Assembly: GCA_030620115.1 (NCBI GenBank)
Contig: JAUXFG010000114.1
Span: 1 to 12,535 of the forward strand
Origin: Candidatus Fermentibacterota bacterium
Lineage (GTDB): Bacteria > JAFGKV01
Length of the DNA: 12,535 nt
Direction of reading: 5' to 3'
The notes below the pieces were generated by a model. It was not told where the DNA came from. It saw only the letters and a list, made by a program, of their open reading frames with translations, and ran no database searches. Position numbers and translations under genes: made by a program. Below, piece after piece: positions 2,550 to 12,528 of the stretch (position 1 is its first letter; every line of letters starts with the position of its first letter).

Positions 2550-3620
2550 TCAGGGCATGGAAGCCATAAGGTCAAGGAGAAGACGCTGATCCCGGCCGGA
2601 ATCAAGGCTCTCCACGGCGAGGAATTCCCCTTTCACTGCTGCGTAGACTGTATCTCCATTCTTCTCGGAGGAAAGCAGGATGATTCCCTTGTCCCGTGTG
2701 GTGGATACGTGGCCCAGCTTTGACATCAGATTTGTTGCCGCGGCCTTCGCCTCGCGTTGGTTCGTCATCCGGCAGAGAAGGATCTCGTTGGTTGTGGTCG
2801 TTCGGTGAGGGGAACTTGCGGCTGCGGTGATCCTCGCTGGATCACGGAATACGTAGCGCCACATCTGTTCGGGTCTGATGCCGCTTTCAGACTCAAAACC
2901 AGAGAGCAACAGTGCATTGACCTGATGCCAGCCTATGTACACGATCCCTGAATTCCGGGAAGGCTGAGTCCAAGGCGGGGGTCTTGAGTCGACCTGGGAC
3001 CTGGTGAGCACAAAAGGAGGTTCTCCTTCTGGCGCAAACCTGTCAGGAATGACACCTGACAACATGAAATTCTCCAGAAAGGCATGGACCGCGGCGGCAA
3101 CACCTGCCGGCGTCCTGCTGGAGAGACGTATCATCCATGTCCAGTCCGTGAACTGAGTACCCTCATGATGTGCCTTGTCCTCAAGCTCCACGTTGAATGG
3201 GTTCCTGCCCGGCTCCACAACGCCGACCCTGTCTCCGGGGAGATCGCCGACCCCAAAAAAGAAAAGACCCCGCACTGGGAATCTGCCTCCCTGTTGCTCT
3301 TTGCTTCGAGACCAGAGGCTGGGAAACTCGACCAAAAGACGATTCCCCGTGAACGTGCCCACCACAATCAGGTTCAGAGAACCGGCATGTTCCCTATGAT
3401 CCATGATCCAGTTGTCATCCACTACCATGGCGCCACTGGCGCCCGATGCCAGGGAAAGCTTCTGAGCGGCCGCGCGTTCCATGTCGGATGCATTATGGGA
3501 TACCACGATTCTTGTCTCGGGGCCTAACCAATGAAGGAGCGGATGAGCGGCCGGAGCACACCACATGCAGGCACAGAAAAGGGGCGGCAACATGCACCGG
3601 CCGATTTTGGAAATCATCAT
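2550..3620 (-). CDS. Secreted protein of unknown function, third gene of the hydrolase operon
   Basis: The 356-residue product starts with an export signal: MMISKIGRC, then a hydrophobic Leu/Phe/Cys/Trp stretch to about residue 24, ending near APAA. Residues about 35-90 (ETRIVVSHNASDMERAAAQKLSLASGA, then LNLIVVGT) look like a small alpha/beta domain. That pattern is loosely similar to the non-catalytic N-terminal domains of some secreted glycosidases, but no enzyme motif is seen. Residues 115-185 contain FFFGVGDLPGDRVGVVEPGRNPF and a WMIRLSSRTPAGVAAAVHAFL helix. The C-terminal part (275-350) looks alpha/beta and ends at the stop. The ATG at 3620 overlaps the TGA of the upstream gene by four bases and is preceded by GAGGGGG, which decides it over the in-frame start at 3881 deep inside the neighbour. 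It probably works with the two upstream secreted enzymes. I do not recognise the family. Confidence 0.75.
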   Translation of the reverse strand: MMISKIGRCMLPPLFCACMWCAPAAHPLLHWLGPETRIVVSHNASDMERAAAQKLSLASGASGAMVVDDNWIMDHREHAGSLNLIVVGTFTGNRLLVEFPSLWSRSKEQQGGRFPVRGLFFFGVGDLPGDRVGVVEPGRNPFNVELEDKAHHEGTQFTDWTWMIRLSSRTPAGVAAAVHAFLENFMLSGVIPDRFAPEGEPPFVLTRSQVDSRPPPWTQPSRNSGIVYIGWHQVNALLLSGFESESGIRPEQMWRYVFRDPARITAAASSPHRTTTTNEILLCRMTNQREAKAAATNLMSKLGHVSTTRDKGIILLSSEKNGDTVYAAVKGEFLAVESLDSGRDQRLLLDLMASMP

Positions 3621-6600
3621 GATGCCCCCTCGATGAGGATTATGCGCGCTCCCGTAGGGCATGCGGGGATGTGTAATCTGAATCCTTTCGCCATTTGCTC
3701 GATCCTCAGTGTTTTCGCCTCGAACAGCTCTATGGCCCGAGTCGGGTGAAGAGGGGAGAAGAGCTCCAGAGAGATCGGTCTCGAGGCGCCTTCCGTGTCT
3801 TCCACGATGAGCACCAAATCGGTGCCGCGCTCGAACGCATACCATGCCACACCTTTGGGGGCCGTCACCCGGAAACGGCACCTCTTCTGAAGCTCGGCGG
3901 CAAACTCCGAAAGCTGCGCATACTCCTCAGGACTTCCCTCATCCCAGAACGGACCCCGCACATTGCCCCGTCGCAGGACCGGCACCGTACCGCTGGAAAG
4001 CTGCCGGACCGGGATTCCCGTGTACTGCGAGAGGGTCAAATCGGAGAGGCCGCATCCAACAAGGCCGATGGTCACGCCCTGGCGCAGGCATTCCGAAAGC
4101 GCCTGCTGCTCACGTTCATGTAGTCGACCGGGCACTGGCACGATGAGGCCATCCAGGAGCGTATGCTTGTTTAGAAGATCGAGGCGTGCCAGGGCCGAGA
4201 TAGGGAGCCCCGTTTCCCGAAGCATGCTGAAGAGCCGGGCCTGATCCCCGATGATGACTTGGTCTTCCCCTGGCTCCGGAAACCTGGGGCCCACGGCGGC
4301 CAGGGCAAAGCCGCGCGGTCGCTGGGGTCGAACGGCCTCGGCCAGCGCATAGAGCTGCTCCAAGATCCACCAGTCCTCTGCGAACGCCACATGCCCCCCC
4401 CTGATTCCTCTGCTGCAGAGGGGGAGCCATGTTTCCCAGCCCCCCAACCACGAAACGCCACCGCCGTTGGGATAGTCGAACACCGGAATCCATGAGCCTT
4501 CGGGCCCGGCCACCATCATCCAGAAGGCATCTGCGTTCTGTCTCCGGATCCGTTCAGCCTTGCTGATTCGTTCCGGGCCGTCACCCCCGAGCATCTCCAT
4601 ATGGAAATGCCCCACCTTTGCCGCGGGCGCCAATGCCTTTCCAAGACACACCAGATAGGTGGCCGCGCGAAAATCTCTCCCCGCGCGTACGTTCCATGCA
4701 TCCATGGATGAGATATCGAATACTGCCTGCCACCGGGAAGCGAAGCGCTCAATTTCGGGGATCTTCAAGAGCGTCGGGAGTTGGGGTAGATCGAACTGAT
4801 CGGTGACTTGAGACGCAGGGGAGGGAGCTTGCAGCTCTTTCTTGAAGATCTCGTGGGCTGGCAGAGCGATTTCGGTAGCCACGAAGAATCGCCAATAGGG
4901 ATCCAGCGCCCCTTGCGCCAATCGCGCAAGGCTATCAATGGACACACCGGCAAAATCCATTCCGAATTCTTGCTCCATCCAGGGCACAAAGAGATCCAGA
5001 TGCTGGGGATGCACGGCAGCCGCGGGCCATACCACGCCGTTGAAGCCATCCACCAGGGAAGCGCTCACGATCATCCGTTCCCCTGTCCACACATGGCGAC
5101 TGAGATCTCTGATGGCGGGAGCCAACCACTCCCGGTAATGAATCCCATTGGGCAGAAACGTGAAGGGATTGGGATGGAAGTTGCACCACGGTTGTCCTGG
5201 CCAGCTGTGGTAGAACGGCCCCCAGGCAAGCCCCTTGACAGGATCAGCGGCAAGGTTCTCCCGCGCGAATTCCACGGCGTTCATATGCGGGAAAAGCGTG
5301 CCAAGAACCTGCACGCCCTTGTGCTTATCCCAGATGACGTTGCGGAAGCCGTCATTCTTGCCTTGTACTATGAAGCTCCTGGATGCAAAAGCGCCGTTGA
5401 GTGTGGCCTCGGCCCGATACACTCCAAAACTGTCATGAGGCACGAATTCCCATGTGTCAATGCCCCATGGCCATGGTGCTTTTCTGGCCGATTTCGGCGT
5501 CAGAGACCTTGGGGTTCCGGTGCGAAGCTCCTGCAGCCGGAGTTCCGGATGTTTGTCTTCGCCGGGAGCCCATCGTTCGACATACAGGGTGGCCTTCTCT
5601 CCCGGCAGGAAGAGAGGGTATTGGGATGCTGGTGACCAACCGGAAGGAAATGTATGATCGCGGAATCTCGGCCATGTGGCCGGCTCCCGGGGAGGGGTTC
5701 GAAGCTGCACCGGCGTGTGCCACACGTGCAGGGTTGGCCCGGGGCGCTCAATGCGTTTTTCCGCCCAGGCGAGGCACCGGCTTCCCGAGGATGAGAGCAC
5801 TGCCAGCTCCAGCCAGAGGAACTCATGCTCAGCCGCACGGTAAACCATCATCTCTTGTGGATCAGGCCATGGGATGAGAAGGGGGAACGTTTTTTTCGGT
5901 GAGGTGATGATTGGCATCTCAATAGTGGAGATGAGGCTTCGCTGCCAGTCCCTGAACCGGGCGCGGACCAAAAGCGAAGACGCTCCGGCGGGATCAGGAT
6001 GAATCCTGATGGAAACGCCCTCTTCTCCCGGCACAAAATCTCCGGGCAGGAAACGCTCGTCTACCGAGATTTCTCGCGCCATCCATGCGATAAGCTGTGA
6101 CGAATCCTCACACAAGAATCGTTGCTTGCTGGCCTGCACATCGCTCCAATCCAAGGCGCGAGGGTTGTGCCATTCCAGCATGTCGGCAACGGACGCTACT
6201 TTGCTTCTTCCTACTCGTTTCATGGCCACCGCGGGAGATCCGTCCTCCCAAGACCAGAGCACCGTCTCCAGGGCCTCGCGGGCGGACGGCCGGTGAAACG
6301 GCTGCGCCAGCCTGAAGCCTGTACTTGTGACAAGAATAGCTTTGTCGCCGAAATGGACCAGGGGAATCGAGGCGCCGGCCATGCCCCAGATCCCGACGCG
6401 GACCTTGCCCGCTCCTGCCGCAGGTATCACTGTCCACGATCCATCGGCGCAGGGCTTTCCATATCGATCATCAGCCCAGAGTGCCCTTACGGCTCCAAAA
6501 CGCTCCCCATCGATACATATCTGGGATTCACGGAGGTCCGGTGGAAGCGGAACCGTGTGCACCCAAGGCCCCGCATGCTCGAGCCGGCGTTGCCAGGTCT

Positions 6601-8074
6601 CGTCATCAGACAATGGAATCGGCGGAGGATAGCGTGATGAAGCTGGTTCCCATGGATCTGGCGATGGCCGGGTTTGGAAGATCTCAGGAGCAGTCACCAA
6701 GACTGATTTCCCGGAAAAAAGCGCGCTGTCCAGGGCTGCCACGGCGGTTGGACTTGCCTCGCCTATAACAAAGAGATCAGCCTCGTGATCTTCAACTGGT
6801 TCCAAACCCATGCGGATCATCTTGCCCCACGGGAGCCGCCCGCATCCCCAGATTTTCGCCAGCGGGGGATCCGAAGTTCCCCTTGTTTGGGAGAGCCGTT
6901 GCACCATGGTCTCCAGAAGGGCCCTGGCCTCAGGTTGGAGGAAGAGCCCTGGTGACGCACACGCAAGAACCTCTCCGGCGCCAAAGGAACACCGCGTCAG
7001 GAGCGGTGAGCCCCGGGGATCATTGGCCTTGATGAGTACTCCATGGCCGGACGCCAATGGGGAAAGGTTCCATCGCGATGTCTCTTGCGTTCCAGGGCGG
7101 GCAAATCTCGGATGCATGGGGAGGTCGATGCCTGCGTTGAGTTCCACTGGAGGTGAAGCCTCGAGACCCAGACCGGCAGTGCTCGAGTCAGTGGGCACGG
7201 GACGCACCATTCCCACCGAAGAGTAGGGGAAGCCAAGGAATGTGGGGAGGATCTCCTCGATGGGGAGCTCGATCCAGTGTTTTACGTCGTCATGGAAGAG
7301 CACCAGGAGCCCGCCCCCCCTGCGCACATATTCTGCCAGGGAGAAGGCCGCCTGCCGAGAGAGCAGCAGCCGGGAGGAGAGCATGATCATATCATACTGG
7401 GAGAGGAGGTCAGTGGCCTCTGGGAGAGCAACCGAAAGATCAGTTTCACCCACGAGCCCCGCGCGTCCGGGATCGCCCGCATGAGGAGGATTGGTGACCC
7501 GAACCTGCAGATCATTCCTGCCGGGGAGAAGGTGCTCCAGCGCTACCTGCACGTCGCCCCAGTTGCCCCCGCCCCGGCCAAGATAGATGCCATTCACATA
7601 GACGGCCAGCGAGTCCTCCATCTTTCTAAACACCATGGCCGGCGGGAGCGGCGAGCCGGCCTGCCAATCGAAGCTTCGTCGGTACCACGCCACTCCTTCA
7701 TATCGTTGCCCGAGGTAATGCCAGCTTCGCCCCACTTCTATCGATTGCCACCCCGCCGTCTCGTTGGAAAAGGCCCAGCCCTTGATCTCCCCATCCGCAG
7801 CGGGGTCTTTTCGCCACTCCCACGTATTTGTCCACGAGGGCTGACCGGAGAGCGTGGCGGCATGTATGCCCAGGGAGGTGAAGACGGAATCAATGGCCTC
7901 GGCAGGATTGCCCGGGGGCTCGAGAAGGAGAAGGGAGTGGCCTGAGAGGTCGGATCGGGGGGCCGTGGTGACGCGGAGAGACTGGTTATCCTGATCCGAT
8001 GCACCACCGCACACGAGCAGGACGCTCACCAATAGGAGTGCCCGGGACACAATACGCATGGCCCGTCCGATCAC
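3617..8074 (-). CDS. Giant secreted multidomain glycosidase-like protein
   Basis: The 1485-residue protein begins with a signal peptide (MRIVSRALLLVSVLLVCGGAS, to about residue 26). Residues about 85-215 form a GH2-like sugar-binding jelly roll: GVAWYRRSFDW, then LAVYVNGIYLGRGGGNWGD and the LLPGRNDLQVRVTN strand. Residues 222-400 contain a class I amidotransferase-like fold (YDMIMLSS, LAEYVRRGGGLLVLF, SFGAGEVL). Residues about 410-900 are mostly beta-type with no family recognised. Residues about 915-1250 (FPHMNAVEFAREN, WGPFYHSWPGQPW, IVSASLVDGFNGVVWP, GVSIDS, GHFHMEMLGGDG, FAEDWWILEQLYAL) look like a TIM-barrel glycosidase domain. A second amidotransferase-like segment follows at 1270-1355, as in GH42-type architectures, then a C-terminal beta region. 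No catalytic acid pair can be assigned, so activity is inference. The GTG at 8074 overlaps the sulfatase stop by four bases; ATG at 8059 is an equally possible start. It is the middle gene of a three-gene operon. Confidence 0.8.
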   Translation of the reverse strand: MIGRAMRIVSRALLLVSVLLVCGGASDQDNQSLRVTTAPRSDLSGHSLLLLEPPGNPAEAIDSVFTSLGIHAATLSGQPSWTNTWEWRKDPAADGEIKGWAFSNETAGWQSIEVGRSWHYLGQRYEGVAWYRRSFDWQAGSPLPPAMVFRKMEDSLAVYVNGIYLGRGGGNWGDVQVALEHLLPGRNDLQVRVTNPPHAGDPGRAGLVGETDLSVALPEATDLLSQYDMIMLSSRLLLSRQAAFSLAEYVRRGGGLLVLFHDDVKHWIELPIEEILPTFLGFPYSSVGMVRPVPTDSSTAGLGLEASPPVELNAGIDLPMHPRFARPGTQETSRWNLSPLASGHGVLIKANDPRGSPLLTRCSFGAGEVLACASPGLFLQPEARALLETMVQRLSQTRGTSDPPLAKIWGCGRLPWGKMIRMGLEPVEDHEADLFVIGEASPTAVAALDSALFSGKSVLVTAPEIFQTRPSPDPWEPASSRYPPPIPLSDDETWQRRLEHAGPWVHTVPLPPDLRESQICIDGERFGAVRALWADDRYGKPCADGSWTVIPAAGAGKVRVGIWGMAGASIPLVHFGDKAILVTSTGFRLAQPFHRPSAREALETVLWSWEDGSPAVAMKRVGRSKVASVADMLEWHNPRALDWSDVQASKQRFLCEDSSQLIAWMAREISVDERFLPGDFVPGEEGVSIRIHPDPAGASSLLVRARFRDWQRSLISTIEMPIITSPKKTFPLLIPWPDPQEMMVYRAAEHEFLWLELAVLSSSGSRCLAWAEKRIERPGPTLHVWHTPVQLRTPPREPATWPRFRDHTFPSGWSPASQYPLFLPGEKATLYVERWAPGEDKHPELRLQELRTGTPRSLTPKSARKAPWPWGIDTWEFVPHDSFGVYRAEATLNGAFASRSFIVQGKNDGFRNVIWDKHKGVQVLGTLFPHMNAVEFARENLAADPVKGLAWGPFYHSWPGQPWCNFHPNPFTFLPNGIHYREWLAPAIRDLSRHVWTGERMIVSASLVDGFNGVVWPAAAVHPQHLDLFVPWMEQEFGMDFAGVSIDSLARLAQGALDPYWRFFVATEIALPAHEIFKKELQAPSPASQVTDQFDLPQLPTLLKIPEIERFASRWQAVFDISSMDAWNVRAGRDFRAATYLVCLGKALAPAAKVGHFHMEMLGGDGPERISKAERIRRQNADAFWMMVAGPEGSWIPVFDYPNGGGVSWLGGWETWLPLCSRGIRGGHVAFAEDWWILEQLYALAEAVRPQRPRGFALAAVGPRFPEPGEDQVIIGDQARLFSMLRETGLPISALARLDLLNKHTLLDGLIVPVPGRLHEREQQALSECLRQGVTIGLVGCGLSDLTLSQYTGIPVRQLSSGTVPVLRRGNVRGPFWDEGSPEEYAQLSEFAAELQKRCRFRVTAPKGVAWYAFERGTDLVLIVEDTEGASRPISLELFSPLHPTRAIELFEAKTLRIEQMAKGFRLHIPACPTGARIILIEGAS

Positions 8075-9747
8075 GACGAAGACTCAGGTTCCAGGTTAAA
8101 TGTGATCCATCCGGTTGCAAGCTTAGGGCGCCCGGCAGGCAATACCCGGAACTGCCACGGATTGTAGCGCACGAGAGTACCCCAGAACGCCGGGCTGAAG
8201 GGGCCGAAACTCACGCCCTCTGGCGTGGAAACAATGGTTCCCTCCACATGATACGGCCCAGTCCCCACATTGTACTCGATCTCATATTGCCCGCGACCCG
8301 GGGTGTTGAGTCTCACGCCAAGGCGGCCGCCAGTGCCGGCAAAGCTCAAGCTTTCTCCAGATGTCGGGCTCAGCACCACCGGTTTTTCAGGATGCCAGGG
8401 AAGCGTATCAGTCCGGGTCCAAAGCGGCTGGGTGTACAGTGAGAGACAATCTACCAACCATTGACTCAAGAGCGCCTCCATGCTATCGGCCACGGCATTG
8501 TTTGCTTCGCTGACGTCGGTCATTTCCATAGGATCGGTCTTGATGTGGTAGAGCCAACGCTGGGCGCCGCTCTTCTCGGTATCGCGCTTGATGAGCTTCC
8601 ACGTGGGAGTGCGGATGGCTCTCAAGTGGATGCCTTGCATCTCGCGGGTTGCCTGATACCCCCCCAACACGGAGGAGATGAACACCGTGCGTTGATCTAT
8701 CGCATCCCCTTTCAGTGCCGCCGCCAGAGATCTGCCCTGCACGTCCTCGGGGATGGAGATGTCAAGAAGATCGAACAATGTGGGCATGATATCCACGATC
8801 TGGACCTGTTCCTCCACCTTGCCTCCCGGCAGAATTACTCCGGGCCACGAGGCCACGAGGGGAATCCGCAACGTCTCGTCAAAAAGGCTGCTGGTCATTG
8901 CGGTGCTGGCGTGCCCCACGGCCCCATGGTCGAGCAGCTCTTCGCCATGGTCAGCCGAGATGATGATCAGGGTATTCGCATCCACTCCAAGCGCGCGGAG
9001 CTTCCCTAACAGGGGTCGCAAGAAGGTGATGTCGAATTGTGCGAGCTCCCCATCGTACAGCCCGCATATCCACCCGGTATCTGACTCTGCATATTGAATA
9101 GATCCTGGAGGCAATAGCAAGGAGCTCCGCACTTTTTCATAGCGCTGGTACGCATCCGGCTCGGAGGGGGGCGCGCCATCAGGCATGAAGAGCGTATCGA
9201 ATGGCGGAGATGGGTCATAGGGCTGGTGGAGATCCCGATAATGGTAGTAGAGGAGGAAAGGCTGTTCTTTTCCACCGAACTCATCGAGCCATCGGAACAG
9301 GATATCATGACCCGCAGTCAAGAAATCCTGCTTCTGGGGAAAGTCCTGAAAACCGAGATTCTGATAGTTCGGTGCGCCGATGAGATAGCAGATATCAGGC
9401 GCCGTGTATCCCGCGTTCACCAACTCCCCCGCCATGGTGGGGACCCCGGGAGTCAAGTTCTTCTCCCTGGTGGTGATCCCGTGCGCAGGTTCATGCCGGC
9501 CTGTGAGCAGCGAAAGGAGTCCGGGAGATGTCCATGCGGCCGAGCTGAAGGCATTGGTAAAGATGGTTCCCGAAGCGGCGAGGCTATCCAATGTAGGTGA
9601 AACAGGCTTCTCATACCCGTAGCAGCCTAGGTGATCCGGGCGCAGGGCGTCAATAGTGATCACAATGATGTTCGGTTGTCTCGTCGCCATGGTGCTTGAT
9701 GCGAATAACATACTCACGAGAACAGTGACAAGAAGGGTGGTTTTCAA
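8071..9747 (-). CDS. Secreted sulfatase-fold hydrolase with Thr at the nucleophile position
   Basis: The product is 558 residues. Residues 1-21 form a signal peptide cleaved after TMA. The alkaline phosphatase/sulfatase fold follows: NIIVITIDALRPDHLGCYGY (metal ligand Asp33), then WTSPGLLSLLTGR (72-84). In classical sulfatases that segment reads C/S-x-P-S-R; here the nucleophile position is Thr73, and the Ser and Arg are Gly76 and Leu77. HYRDLHQPY (169-177, likely catalytic His174) and SADHGEELLDHG (metal ligands Asp266, His267) are intact, as is the PTWKLIK stretch near 381. Residues 455-558 form a C-terminal beta-sandwich-like extension. The start is TTG at 9747, because GGAGG lies 6 bases upstream and the hydrophobic signal follows directly; an in-frame start at 10044 would overlap the divergent gene. 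First gene of the operon. A sulfatase, phosphodiesterase or phosphotransferase role is possible; the Thr favours non-formylglycine chemistry. Confidence 0.87.
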   Translation of the reverse strand: MKTTLLVTVLVSMLFASSTMATRQPNIIVITIDALRPDHLGCYGYEKPVSPTLDSLAASGTIFTNAFSSAAWTSPGLLSLLTGRHEPAHGITTREKNLTPGVPTMAGELVNAGYTAPDICYLIGAPNYQNLGFQDFPQKQDFLTAGHDILFRWLDEFGGKEQPFLLYYHYRDLHQPYDPSPPFDTLFMPDGAPPSEPDAYQRYEKVRSSLLLPPGSIQYAESDTGWICGLYDGELAQFDITFLRPLLGKLRALGVDANTLIIISADHGEELLDHGAVGHASTAMTSSLFDETLRIPLVASWPGVILPGGKVEEQVQIVDIMPTLFDLLDISIPEDVQGRSLAAALKGDAIDQRTVFISSVLGGYQATREMQGIHLRAIRTPTWKLIKRDTEKSGAQRWLYHIKTDPMEMTDVSEANNAVADSMEALLSQWLVDCLSLYTQPLWTRTDTLPWHPEKPVVLSPTSGESLSFAGTGGRLGVRLNTPGRGQYEIEYNVGTGPYHVEGTIVSTPEGVSFGPFSPAFWGTLVRYNPWQFRVLPAGRPKLATGWITFNLEPESSS

Positions 9748-9874: not shown

Positions 9875-10555
9875 ATGTTCTTCTGGGATCCGACTTTTTT
9901 TATTCTGATTCCCGCCATGATTCTCGCAATGTACGCGCAGAACAAGGTGAAGACCACATTCGCTGCAATGTCGCGGGTTCCCACCAGGCGTCGGCTCACC
10001 GGAGCCGAAGTAGCCTCGCGAATACTAAAGATGAATGGACTCACTGAGGTGGTCGTTGAGCCGCAGCCCGGCCGGCTTACCGATCATTATGACCCCAGAA
10101 CCAAGCGTGTCCGTCTCTCGGAGCCGGTCTATAGCGGCCGGTCGGTAGCAGCGTTGGGGGTTGCAGCCCACGAAGTTGGGCATGCATTACAGGACAAGGG
10201 CGGCTATCTCCCCTTGAAGTTCCGTCATGGGCTTCTTGGTCCCGCACAACTAGGCAGCACGCTTGCATGGCCGTTGGCGATTTTCGGGCTCATACTTGGC
10301 AGCCCAAAACTGCTCGATATCGGCATCCTGCTTTTCTCCGGGGTGGTTCTATTCCATGTCGTTACGCTCCCGGTGGAATTGAATGCCTCCAGCAGAGCCC
10401 TGGCCCATCTATCCAAGTCTGGGATCCTCGCCGGCGATGAGATCCCTGGTGCACGCAAGGTGCTCAATGCCGCCGCTCTGACCTATCTCGCCGCCGCTGC
10501 GGTCGCCATGGCAAATCTGTTACGACTGCTCATTCTCCGGGGATCACGTGATTGA
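9875..10555 (+). CDS. YugP-type membrane zinc metallopeptidase
   Basis: The 226-residue protein matches the neutral zinc metallopeptidase family typified by Bacillus YugP, including its usual length of about 225-230. Residues 4-20 form an N-terminal membrane helix. LTGAEVASRILKMNGL and DHYDPRTKRVRLSEPVYSGRSVAALGVAAHEVGHALQ follow. The zinc site is HEVGH (His99, Glu100, His103), with Glu168 in LPVELNASSRAL as the likely third ligand. Hydrophobic segments at about 126-141, 147-165 and 200-221 anchor it in the membrane, and the tail ends with basic residues. The family is conserved but its substrates are poorly known; a membrane-protein quality role is often assumed. It is transcribed away from the hydrolase operon, so a functional link with that operon is not implied. 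Confidence 0.92.
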   Translation: MFFWDPTFFILIPAMILAMYAQNKVKTTFAAMSRVPTRRRLTGAEVASRILKMNGLTEVVVEPQPGRLTDHYDPRTKRVRLSEPVYSGRSVAALGVAAHEVGHALQDKGGYLPLKFRHGLLGPAQLGSTLAWPLAIFGLILGSPKLLDIGILLFSGVVLFHVVTLPVELNASSRALAHLSKSGILAGDEIPGARKVLNAAALTYLAAAAVAMANLLRLLILRGSRD

Positions 10556-10836: not shown

Positions 10837-12300
10837 GTGACTCAGTCCAACAATCGCAACATTGATGAACCACACAATCCATTTCCGGATGTTACGCTAG
10901 AACAGCTGCCTCAGCGCTTGCGTGACGCCGCTGCTCACGCGGGCTGGAAAACCCTCATGCCCGTTCAGGCCCGGGCCATCCCGTGCTTGCTCGATGCCCG
11001 GGACATGATGATCCAGGCCCGCACCGGTAGCGGCAAAACCGGCGCGTTTATTTTGCCCATGCTGGAGCGGCTCGACCCGGCCAACAACTACTGTCAGGCG
11101 CTTATTCTGGTCCCCACACGCGAGCTGGCCCGGCAAGTATCGCGGGAGGCCGAAATGCTATGCAACGCCGCAGGCTTCCGCACTGTTGCGGTATACGGTG
11201 GCGTTGGCTATGGGGCACAATTGGATGCGTTCCGAGAAGGCGCGCATATCGTCGTCGGCACGCCGGGACGCGTGCTCGATCATCTGCTCAACGGCACGTT
11301 CTCACTTCGTCATCTTGAGATGCTGATTTTCGACGAAGCTGATCGCATGTTATCAATGGGCTTCTACCCTGACATGAGACAGGTGCAGCGCTACCTACCC
11401 GCCCGCACCATCAATAGCTGTATGTTTTCTGCTACTTTCCCGGCCACCGTCATGCACACCGCACGAGAGTTTATTCACGAACCGGAATTCCTTACCCTCA
11501 GCGGCGATCATGTCCACGTCACCGACACGGAGCATGTTTTCTACATTGTCCCCGGCATGGACAAGGATCGCAGTCTCGTTCGCATCATCGAAATCGAAAA
11601 CCCGGCATCGGTCATCATCTTCTGCAACACGAAAGTCGAAGTGCACTACGTTTCGGTGGTACTGCAACGATTCGGATATGACGCGGATGAGTTGAGCGCC
11701 AATCTCTCGCAAAATGATCGCGAACGGGTTTTGGAGCGTGTTCGCAAAGGGACCCTTCGGTTTCTTGTGGCGACCGACGTTGCCGCGCGAGGACTGGATA
11801 TCCCCGAACTCTCCCACGTGATTCTGTACGAAATGCCTGAAGACATCGAGGGCTACATCCACCGCGCCGGGCGTACGGGCCGCGCAGGCGTGGCTGGAGT
11901 TGCGATTTCATTGGTGAGTGGAATAGAGAAGTTTGCTCTCGACCGCATAGCCAAACACTACGGTATTGACCTGCAAGAGCGACCATTGCCCACCAAAGCT
12001 GATGTTGAGGCGATTGTTGCGGAACGGGTAACGATCATGCTGGAAGCTCGGTTGCGCGAGCGTGCCAAATTGAAAACTGAGCGCAGTCAACGATTTGTGC
12101 CGCTCGCCCGCAGATTAGCCCAAAATGATGACGAGGCTGCTATCATCACGATGCTATTAGACGACTATTACCAGCAGATGCTCCATGCACCCTTACCTCA
12201 GCCTTCGAAGGCATCCGCTGAACAGGACAAATCGGGTCCAGATCGCACTCACCGCCGTCGGAAATCCCGAAGACCACGGAGAAGCCGGGATCGGACTTAG
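10837..12300 (+). CDS. DEAD-box ATP-dependent RNA helicase
   Basis: All the superfamily 2 DEAD-box motifs are present in the 487-residue product. They are the Q motif region (Phe16 to Gln44, PVQARAIP), motif I ARTGSGKT (61-68), Ia PTRELA (93-98), GG (121-122), Ib TPGR (142-145), II DEAD (166-169), III SAT (198-200), IV IIFCNTK (260-266), V ATDVAARGLDI (312-322) and VI HRAGRTGR (342-349). The two RecA-like domains end near residue 375. A helical extension (about 385-450) and an Arg/Lys-rich tail from about 466 to the end follow and may bind RNA. Such enzymes unwind short RNA duplexes in ribosome assembly, RNA decay or cold response. The start is GTG at 10837 with only a weak upstream purine stretch; no in-frame ATG exists until residue 41, within the Q motif. 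The last base of the stop codon is the first base of a repeat element, so the extreme C-terminus could have been altered by insertion. Confidence 0.94.
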   Translation: MTQSNNRNIDEPHNPFPDVTLEQLPQRLRDAAAHAGWKTLMPVQARAIPCLLDARDMMIQARTGSGKTGAFILPMLERLDPANNYCQALILVPTRELARQVSREAEMLCNAAGFRTVAVYGGVGYGAQLDAFREGAHIVVGTPGRVLDHLLNGTFSLRHLEMLIFDEADRMLSMGFYPDMRQVQRYLPARTINSCMFSATFPATVMHTAREFIHEPEFLTLSGDHVHVTDTEHVFYIVPGMDKDRSLVRIIEIENPASVIIFCNTKVEVHYVSVVLQRFGYDADELSANLSQNDRERVLERVRKGTLRFLVATDVAARGLDIPELSHVILYEMPEDIEGYIHRAGRTGRAGVAGVAISLVSGIEKFALDRIAKHYGIDLQERPLPTKADVEAIVAERVTIMLEARLRERAKLKTERSQRFVPLARRLAQNDDEAAIITMLLDDYYQQMLHAPLPQPSKASAEQDKSGPDRTHRRRKSRRPRRSRDRT

Positions 12301-12517
12301 GGTTCGCGCAGAAATAACTTCACATTTTGACATCCCATCTTCACCACATCTATTGGCCTCGTCTCCGTCGCGAAATCCTCGATCCGCCGCCTGGCGGACG
12401 GGGCCTCCCGTCTACGCCAAGGCTCCGCCGTGGCAAGCCGGTTTCGCTCCCTCGGTGAGACCAATTCTGCGGCAAATCTGTGCGCCAAGAATGCGAACCT
12501 ATTCTTGCGCGAACCCC
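12300..12517. mobile_element. MITE-like repeat element with imperfect terminal inverted repeats
   Basis: The left end (12300-12328, starting GGGTTCGCGCAGAAATAAC) is an imperfect inverted copy of the right end (12516-12488 on the minus strand, starting GGGTTCGCGCAAGAATAGG). The right end also matches the repeat at 1319-1351 at 30 of 33 positions. The interior holds a hairpin TCCGCC/GGCGGA at 12383-12398, related to the palindrome at 819-834, and no supportable gene. The element is about 218 bp, lacks a transposase, and would need one supplied in trans. Its ends abut the helicase stop and the next ribosome-binding site. Target-site duplication was not clear. Confidence 0.5.
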
Positions 12518-12525
12518 AAGGAGGA
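12518..12525 (+). promoter_or_regulatory. Shine-Dalgarno AAGGAGGA for the gene beyond the right edge
   Basis: AAGGAGGA is followed by TCA and then ATG at 12529. This is strong evidence for a translation start at the window edge. Confidence 0.55.
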
Positions 12526-12528
12526 TCA

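Follow-up and report, generated by a model that had tools for sequence, protein, structure and literature searches.

An exported three-gene locus with sulfatase-fold, glycosidase-like, and unclassified products in a Fermentibacterota lineage

Three adjoining genes in a Candidatus Fermentibacterota genome encode a sulfatase-fold protein with a Thr-type active site (A), a large glycosidase-like protein (B), and a protein without a sequence family (C), and each of the three genomes examined from the phylum has these genes once, in one and the same order. As a whole, the trio is read here, tentatively and with somewhat less than even confidence, as a lineage-restricted exported glycan-processing module directed at the cell envelope. 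Judged by sequence, B and C appear to lie outside every described family, and within the reach of these tools the trio is undescribed as a set, though its parts are recognizable. Should B be active, it would be a candidate for a new glycoside hydrolase (GH) family, and the trio offers a concrete system in which to study surface-glycan processing in an uncultured lineage.

Layout and distribution of the trio

The window analyzed is the whole of a 12,535-nucleotide contig (C34) from a 4.1 Mb MAG that is 98% complete. It contains the trio, confirmed as three minus-strand genes, and three annotated neighbors:

1681-2493: neighboring AbiEii-like nucleotidyltransferase (9.5e-10)
2550-3620, minus strand: gene C, exported protein of 356 amino acids without a sequence family
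2559-2783, minus strand: C residues 280-354, tentative DcrB/PsbP-like alpha/beta domain
3075-3521, minus strand: C residues 34-182, alpha/beta domain of S-layer-anchor or GH67/GH115 N-terminal type, from structural matches of a model
3617-8074, minus strand: gene B, exported multidomain protein of 1485 amino acids, glycosidase-like
3620-4309, minus strand: B residues 1256-1485, amidotransferase-like (GH42 "trimerisation"-type) domain and C-terminal beta domain
4310-5359, minus strand: B residues 906-1255, core with the highest conservation, probably a TIM barrel that would contain the active site
6080-6865, minus strand: B residues 404-665, second amidotransferase-like segment (tentative)
6881-7405, minus strand: B residues 224-398, first amidotransferase-like segment
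7421-7825, minus strand: B residues 84-218, GH2-type jelly-roll (sugar-binding) domain
8071-9747, minus strand: gene A, exported sulfatase-fold (PF00884) protein of 558 amino acids
9517-9531, minus strand: A residues 73-77, nucleophile motif TSPGL replacing [CS]xPxR, from alignments
9875-10555: neighboring neutral zinc metallopeptidase
10837-12300: neighboring DEAD-box helicase

The sequence-only reading had described the genes as one set, joined by two 4-base overlaps and with an export signal on each product, and this description holds. The junctions are GTGA between A and B (8074-8071) and ATGA between B and C (3620-3617), and the trio, which looks co-transcribed and presumably is, stays together in all three genomes. 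By eye, A begins with the signal-peptide-like MKTTLLVTVLVSMLFASSTMA, B with MRIVSRALLLVSVLLVCGG, and C with a hydrophobic stretch up to CAPAA that is likewise signal-peptide-like. The start codon of A is TTG at 9747, with a GGAGG-type ribosome site immediately upstream. The signal region of B ends in a Cys in all three orthologues, and from this residue B may be a lipoprotein.

The two relatives (G001 and G002) are the public MAG records JALOPK010000139.1 and JAFGKV010000148.1, labeled Eisenbacteria and Fermentibacteria; the family named JAFGKV01 has been assigned to Fermentibacterota (PMC10504277). Compared with the window, protein identity in the relatives is 58 and 57% for A, 49 and 47% for B, and 37 and 39% for C, and conservation of the orthologues in two genera rules out chance open reading frames. 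A and B remain tightly coupled in the relatives, but the exact 4-base overlaps are not conserved: G002 keeps GTGA at A/B, while in G001 the A/B junction is TAATG (1 base) and the B/C junction ATGAGTAA (8 bases). In G002 it is uncertain where C starts, and there the gene runs off contig C141 and has its end at the edge of contig C321, across which it is likely continuous. The flanking genes differ between the window and the relatives, so the trio, nowhere scattered, is the unit common to all three genomes; that it always occurs together is a small-sample statement, since the co-occurrence sample is three genomes only.

A search of 383 other genomes with profiles of B and C gave no credible match. 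The sole outside match, of G098 to the B profile (0.006), was dismissed as chance because that sequence reads as an aldehyde ferredoxin oxidoreductase-like protein. A degenerate-pattern scan of GTDB genomes with two short motifs returned the two relatives and no others, the viral contigs searched gave no relatives, and plasmids gave a match to the B jelly roll alone (31% identity) and none to C.

The three encoded proteins

Protein A had been called a sulfatase-fold enzyme with a likely interest in sulfated glycans; the fold stands (PF00884 5.8e-33, SGSH_C 1.1e-17), but the sulfatase motif is missing and the direction towards sulfated glycans is unsupported. The S1 formylglycine sulfatases (PF00884) have the same fold and metal-ligand motifs as A, but have [CS]xPxR where A has TSPGL and its orthologues TSPAL and TSASL, with Thr at the nucleophile position and Leu in place of Arg in all three. 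Since A lacks this formylglycine (FGly) motif and has Thr in place of Cys/Ser, the name sulfatase should not be applied to it; all three genomes do have formylglycine-generating-enzyme family genes, but A is without their target motif. Thr73, Asp33, Asp266, and His267 are invariant in the three orthologues, and this nucleophile and metal-ligand set is comparable to that of LtaS, EptA, and YejM, Thr-type metalloenzymes of the alkaline phosphatase superfamily, in which Thr is the nucleophile (LtaS and EptA) or is conserved (YejM) (PMC7576196). However, A carries a signal peptide and lacks an N-terminal membrane domain, and its bit scores are far below the cut-offs of these families (EptA 22.5 against 561, YejM 20.9 against 825, LtaS 13.9 against 970). 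From the Thr that stands in for the sulfatase motif, and the Thr nucleophile of LtaS and EptA, A is predicted to be a Thr-dependent phosphoesterase or phosphotransferase, hydrolysis and transfer being covered alike, and its substrate would be a phosphate.

Thr is common at this position. In the PF00884 seed, 30 of the 59 sequences carry it, and the SulfAtlas authors do not count uncharacterized Thr-motif proteins as functional sulfatases without experiment (PMC5066984). The genome of the window, G001, and G002 each have 17-24 sulfatase-fold matches (loci L001-L008 and L033-L054), and among the 28 readable paralogues from these genomes (L001 was truncated) 27 have Thr and one has the sulfatase motif (L039, CSPFR). 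This is an annotation trap: nearly all of the "sulfatases" read here have Thr rather than the Cys or Ser that formylglycine requires, so they give no ground for inferring the degradation of sulfated glycans.

Protein B as a whole matches no Pfam or NCBIfam family over the cut-off, and a PDB profile search with residues 777-1485 gave chance matches only; profile searches thus leave it outside the characterized glycosidase families, in agreement with the sequence-only reading. The GH2-like jelly roll noted there is supported, with its profile (A1) matching the sialate O-acetylesterase 9ega at 1.8e-8 and GH2 enzymes at 2.5e-5; in Pfam there is a sub-threshold match to BetaGal_ABD2 at 0.0055-0.02. 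The immunoglobulin-like and TIM-barrel domains of GH2 were unmatched in B by profiles at E up to 10. Both amidotransferase-like segments also find support, the first from sequence pattern and from a weak match of the G001 orthologue to the amidotransferase-like DUF4350 (0.017), and the second, which has no family match, tentatively from sequence pattern.

In the core of B (906-1255), 59% of residues are invariant among the three species, compared with 31-40% in the preceding domains and 21-47% in the following ones, and the invariant acidic residues include D1009, E1068, D1092, D1125, E1160, and E1246. An AlphaFold2 model of residues 777-1485, made from a three-row alignment, has a pLDDT of 48 overall, mostly 25-40 in the core and mostly 50-85 in the last ~230 residues. 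Foldseek matched this tail to GH167 (2.5e-7), GH151 (8.4e-7), and GH42 (Gan42B, 5.9e-6), and it aligns with the GH151 enzyme 6tvk at Z 10.2 over 220 residues (rmsd 3.6); the GH151 and GH167 alignments cover the tail alone. Since such a tail follows a TIM barrel in GH42, GH151, and GH167 enzymes, the core is probably a TIM barrel. The barrel that had been placed at 900-1260 is therefore kept as a candidate by its position, but gains nothing from the low-confidence core of the model or from hhalign, where core probabilities against GH42-type groups were under 2% and near the sulfatase control. GH42 and GH42M sequence profiles had no match in B at E up to 10, all three genomes lacked a PF08532 match, and when 30 GH42M-containing proteins were searched by hmmsearch with the C-terminal profile of B, the outcome was a weak match to the tail alone (L074, 0.0023). 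B is like the GH42, GH151, and GH167 enzymes in having an amidotransferase-like domain and then a beta domain after a core of ~350 residues, but it is about twice as long, has an additional N-terminal jelly roll and two more amidotransferase-like segments, has no sequence match to GH42, and resembles GH151 and GH167 structurally and in the tail only. By this architecture B would be catalytic, although it could be a catalytically dead scaffold.

Protein C, for which the sequence-only reading recognized no family, matches none in Pfam or NCBIfam, and a PDB profile search gave chance matches only; the fold likenesses come from a model of low overall confidence (56), good at 34-100, poor at 102-130, and moderate after. 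The best match of the N-terminal domain is to the Methanococcus voltae S-layer anchoring domain 9fsa (Z 10.6, 114 residues, 20% identity), which is the dimerizing anchor region of the S-layer protein (PMC11410804), followed by GH115 (Z 8.8), GH67 (Z 8.5), and BcsB (Z 8.2). In this moderate-confidence part of the model C shares a fold with these proteins, but it has no sequence-profile match to them and adds the DcrB/PsbP-like C-terminal domain, which matches 3v7b (Z 8.4), DcrB 6e8a (Z 6.7), and PsbP 2xb3 (Z 5.5). C may bind glycans.

Possible roles of the trio

In the favored envelope-directed module, B would be a large glycoside hydrolase or transglycosidase of several domains, its architecture akin to that of GH42, GH151, and GH167 enzymes, with a core that cleaves or rearranges glycosidic bonds and a jelly roll and amidotransferase-like domains that position the polymer or mediate oligomerization. 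The Thr nucleophile and metal site of A would remove a phosphate-type substituent from the glycan of B or transfer it, and C would bind glycan or tether the set to the surface through its S-layer-anchor/GH67-N-like domain. The substrate would be one of the cell's own envelope or surface polymers. A more specific proposal is possible but on balance doubtful: that B founds a new GH family, and that a Thr-type phosphoesterase and a protein resembling an S-layer anchor join it in an undescribed envelope glycan-remodeling system of one lineage that acts on a phosphate-substituted polymer.

If the trio were instead a small polysaccharide-utilization locus without SusCD, degrading a decorated environmental polysaccharide (plant, algal, or microbial) for uptake, then its exported GH-like and esterase-like enzymes would fit that role, and the many sulfatase-fold proteins of each genome could serve the same purpose. 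This nutritional role is considered unlikely, as no transporter, SusC/D pair, regulator, or further CAZyme adjoins the operon in the window or in the two relatives, and a single copy retained in three of three genomes is unlike the variable utilization loci. For the same reasons a polymer of the cell's own envelope is likelier than a variable food polysaccharide, and the envelope role is where the evidence leans. Less probable still is a part in surface-layer assembly, with B as a giant structural or adhesive protein built from inactive glycosidase-derived domains, C as an envelope anchor, and A modifying the anchor polymer. The best structural match of C is consistent with such a role, as are the size, multidomain build, and possible lipid attachment of B. 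However, S-layer proteins usually diverge fast, while the putative catalytic core is the most conserved part of B and holds many invariant acids, and the domain of C is found in GH67 and GH115 enzymes too. That A is a genuine sulfatase, and that the trio desulfates and cleaves sulfated glycans, is highly improbable: the Pfam matches of A and the formylglycine-generating-enzyme family genes agree with it, but Thr for Cys/Ser and Leu for Arg in every orthologue, together with the standing of Thr-motif proteins in SulfAtlas, argue against it.

Sequences around the operon

Beyond gene C, both relatives (L013 709-2645 and L088 2789-4669) have a tRNA-Leu(CAA) on the opposite strand, then a small open reading frame for a membrane protein, and then an SGNH hydrolase; the two hydrolases have membrane segments and are 62% identical to each other. 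All three of these features are absent beside the operon in the window. The SGNH hydrolase was rejected as a fourth member of the set, as its homologue in the genome of the window is on another contig (C266), where the open frame contains one TGA. At the edge of the window, positions 1-621 hold a partial ECF sigma-factor-like gene (sigma-70 region 2, 1.6e-4).

The window also carries a dispersed repeat built around TTCGCGCAGAAATA, at 1312-1343, 2516-2547, and 12289-12326 with 12490-12527 (inverted), and one copy is directly downstream of gene C. With up to one mismatch allowed, the genome has 73 copies of the repeat, compared with 0 for the reversed control; several are in facing pairs about 130-200 bp apart, and the repeat resembles a MITE- or REP-like element.
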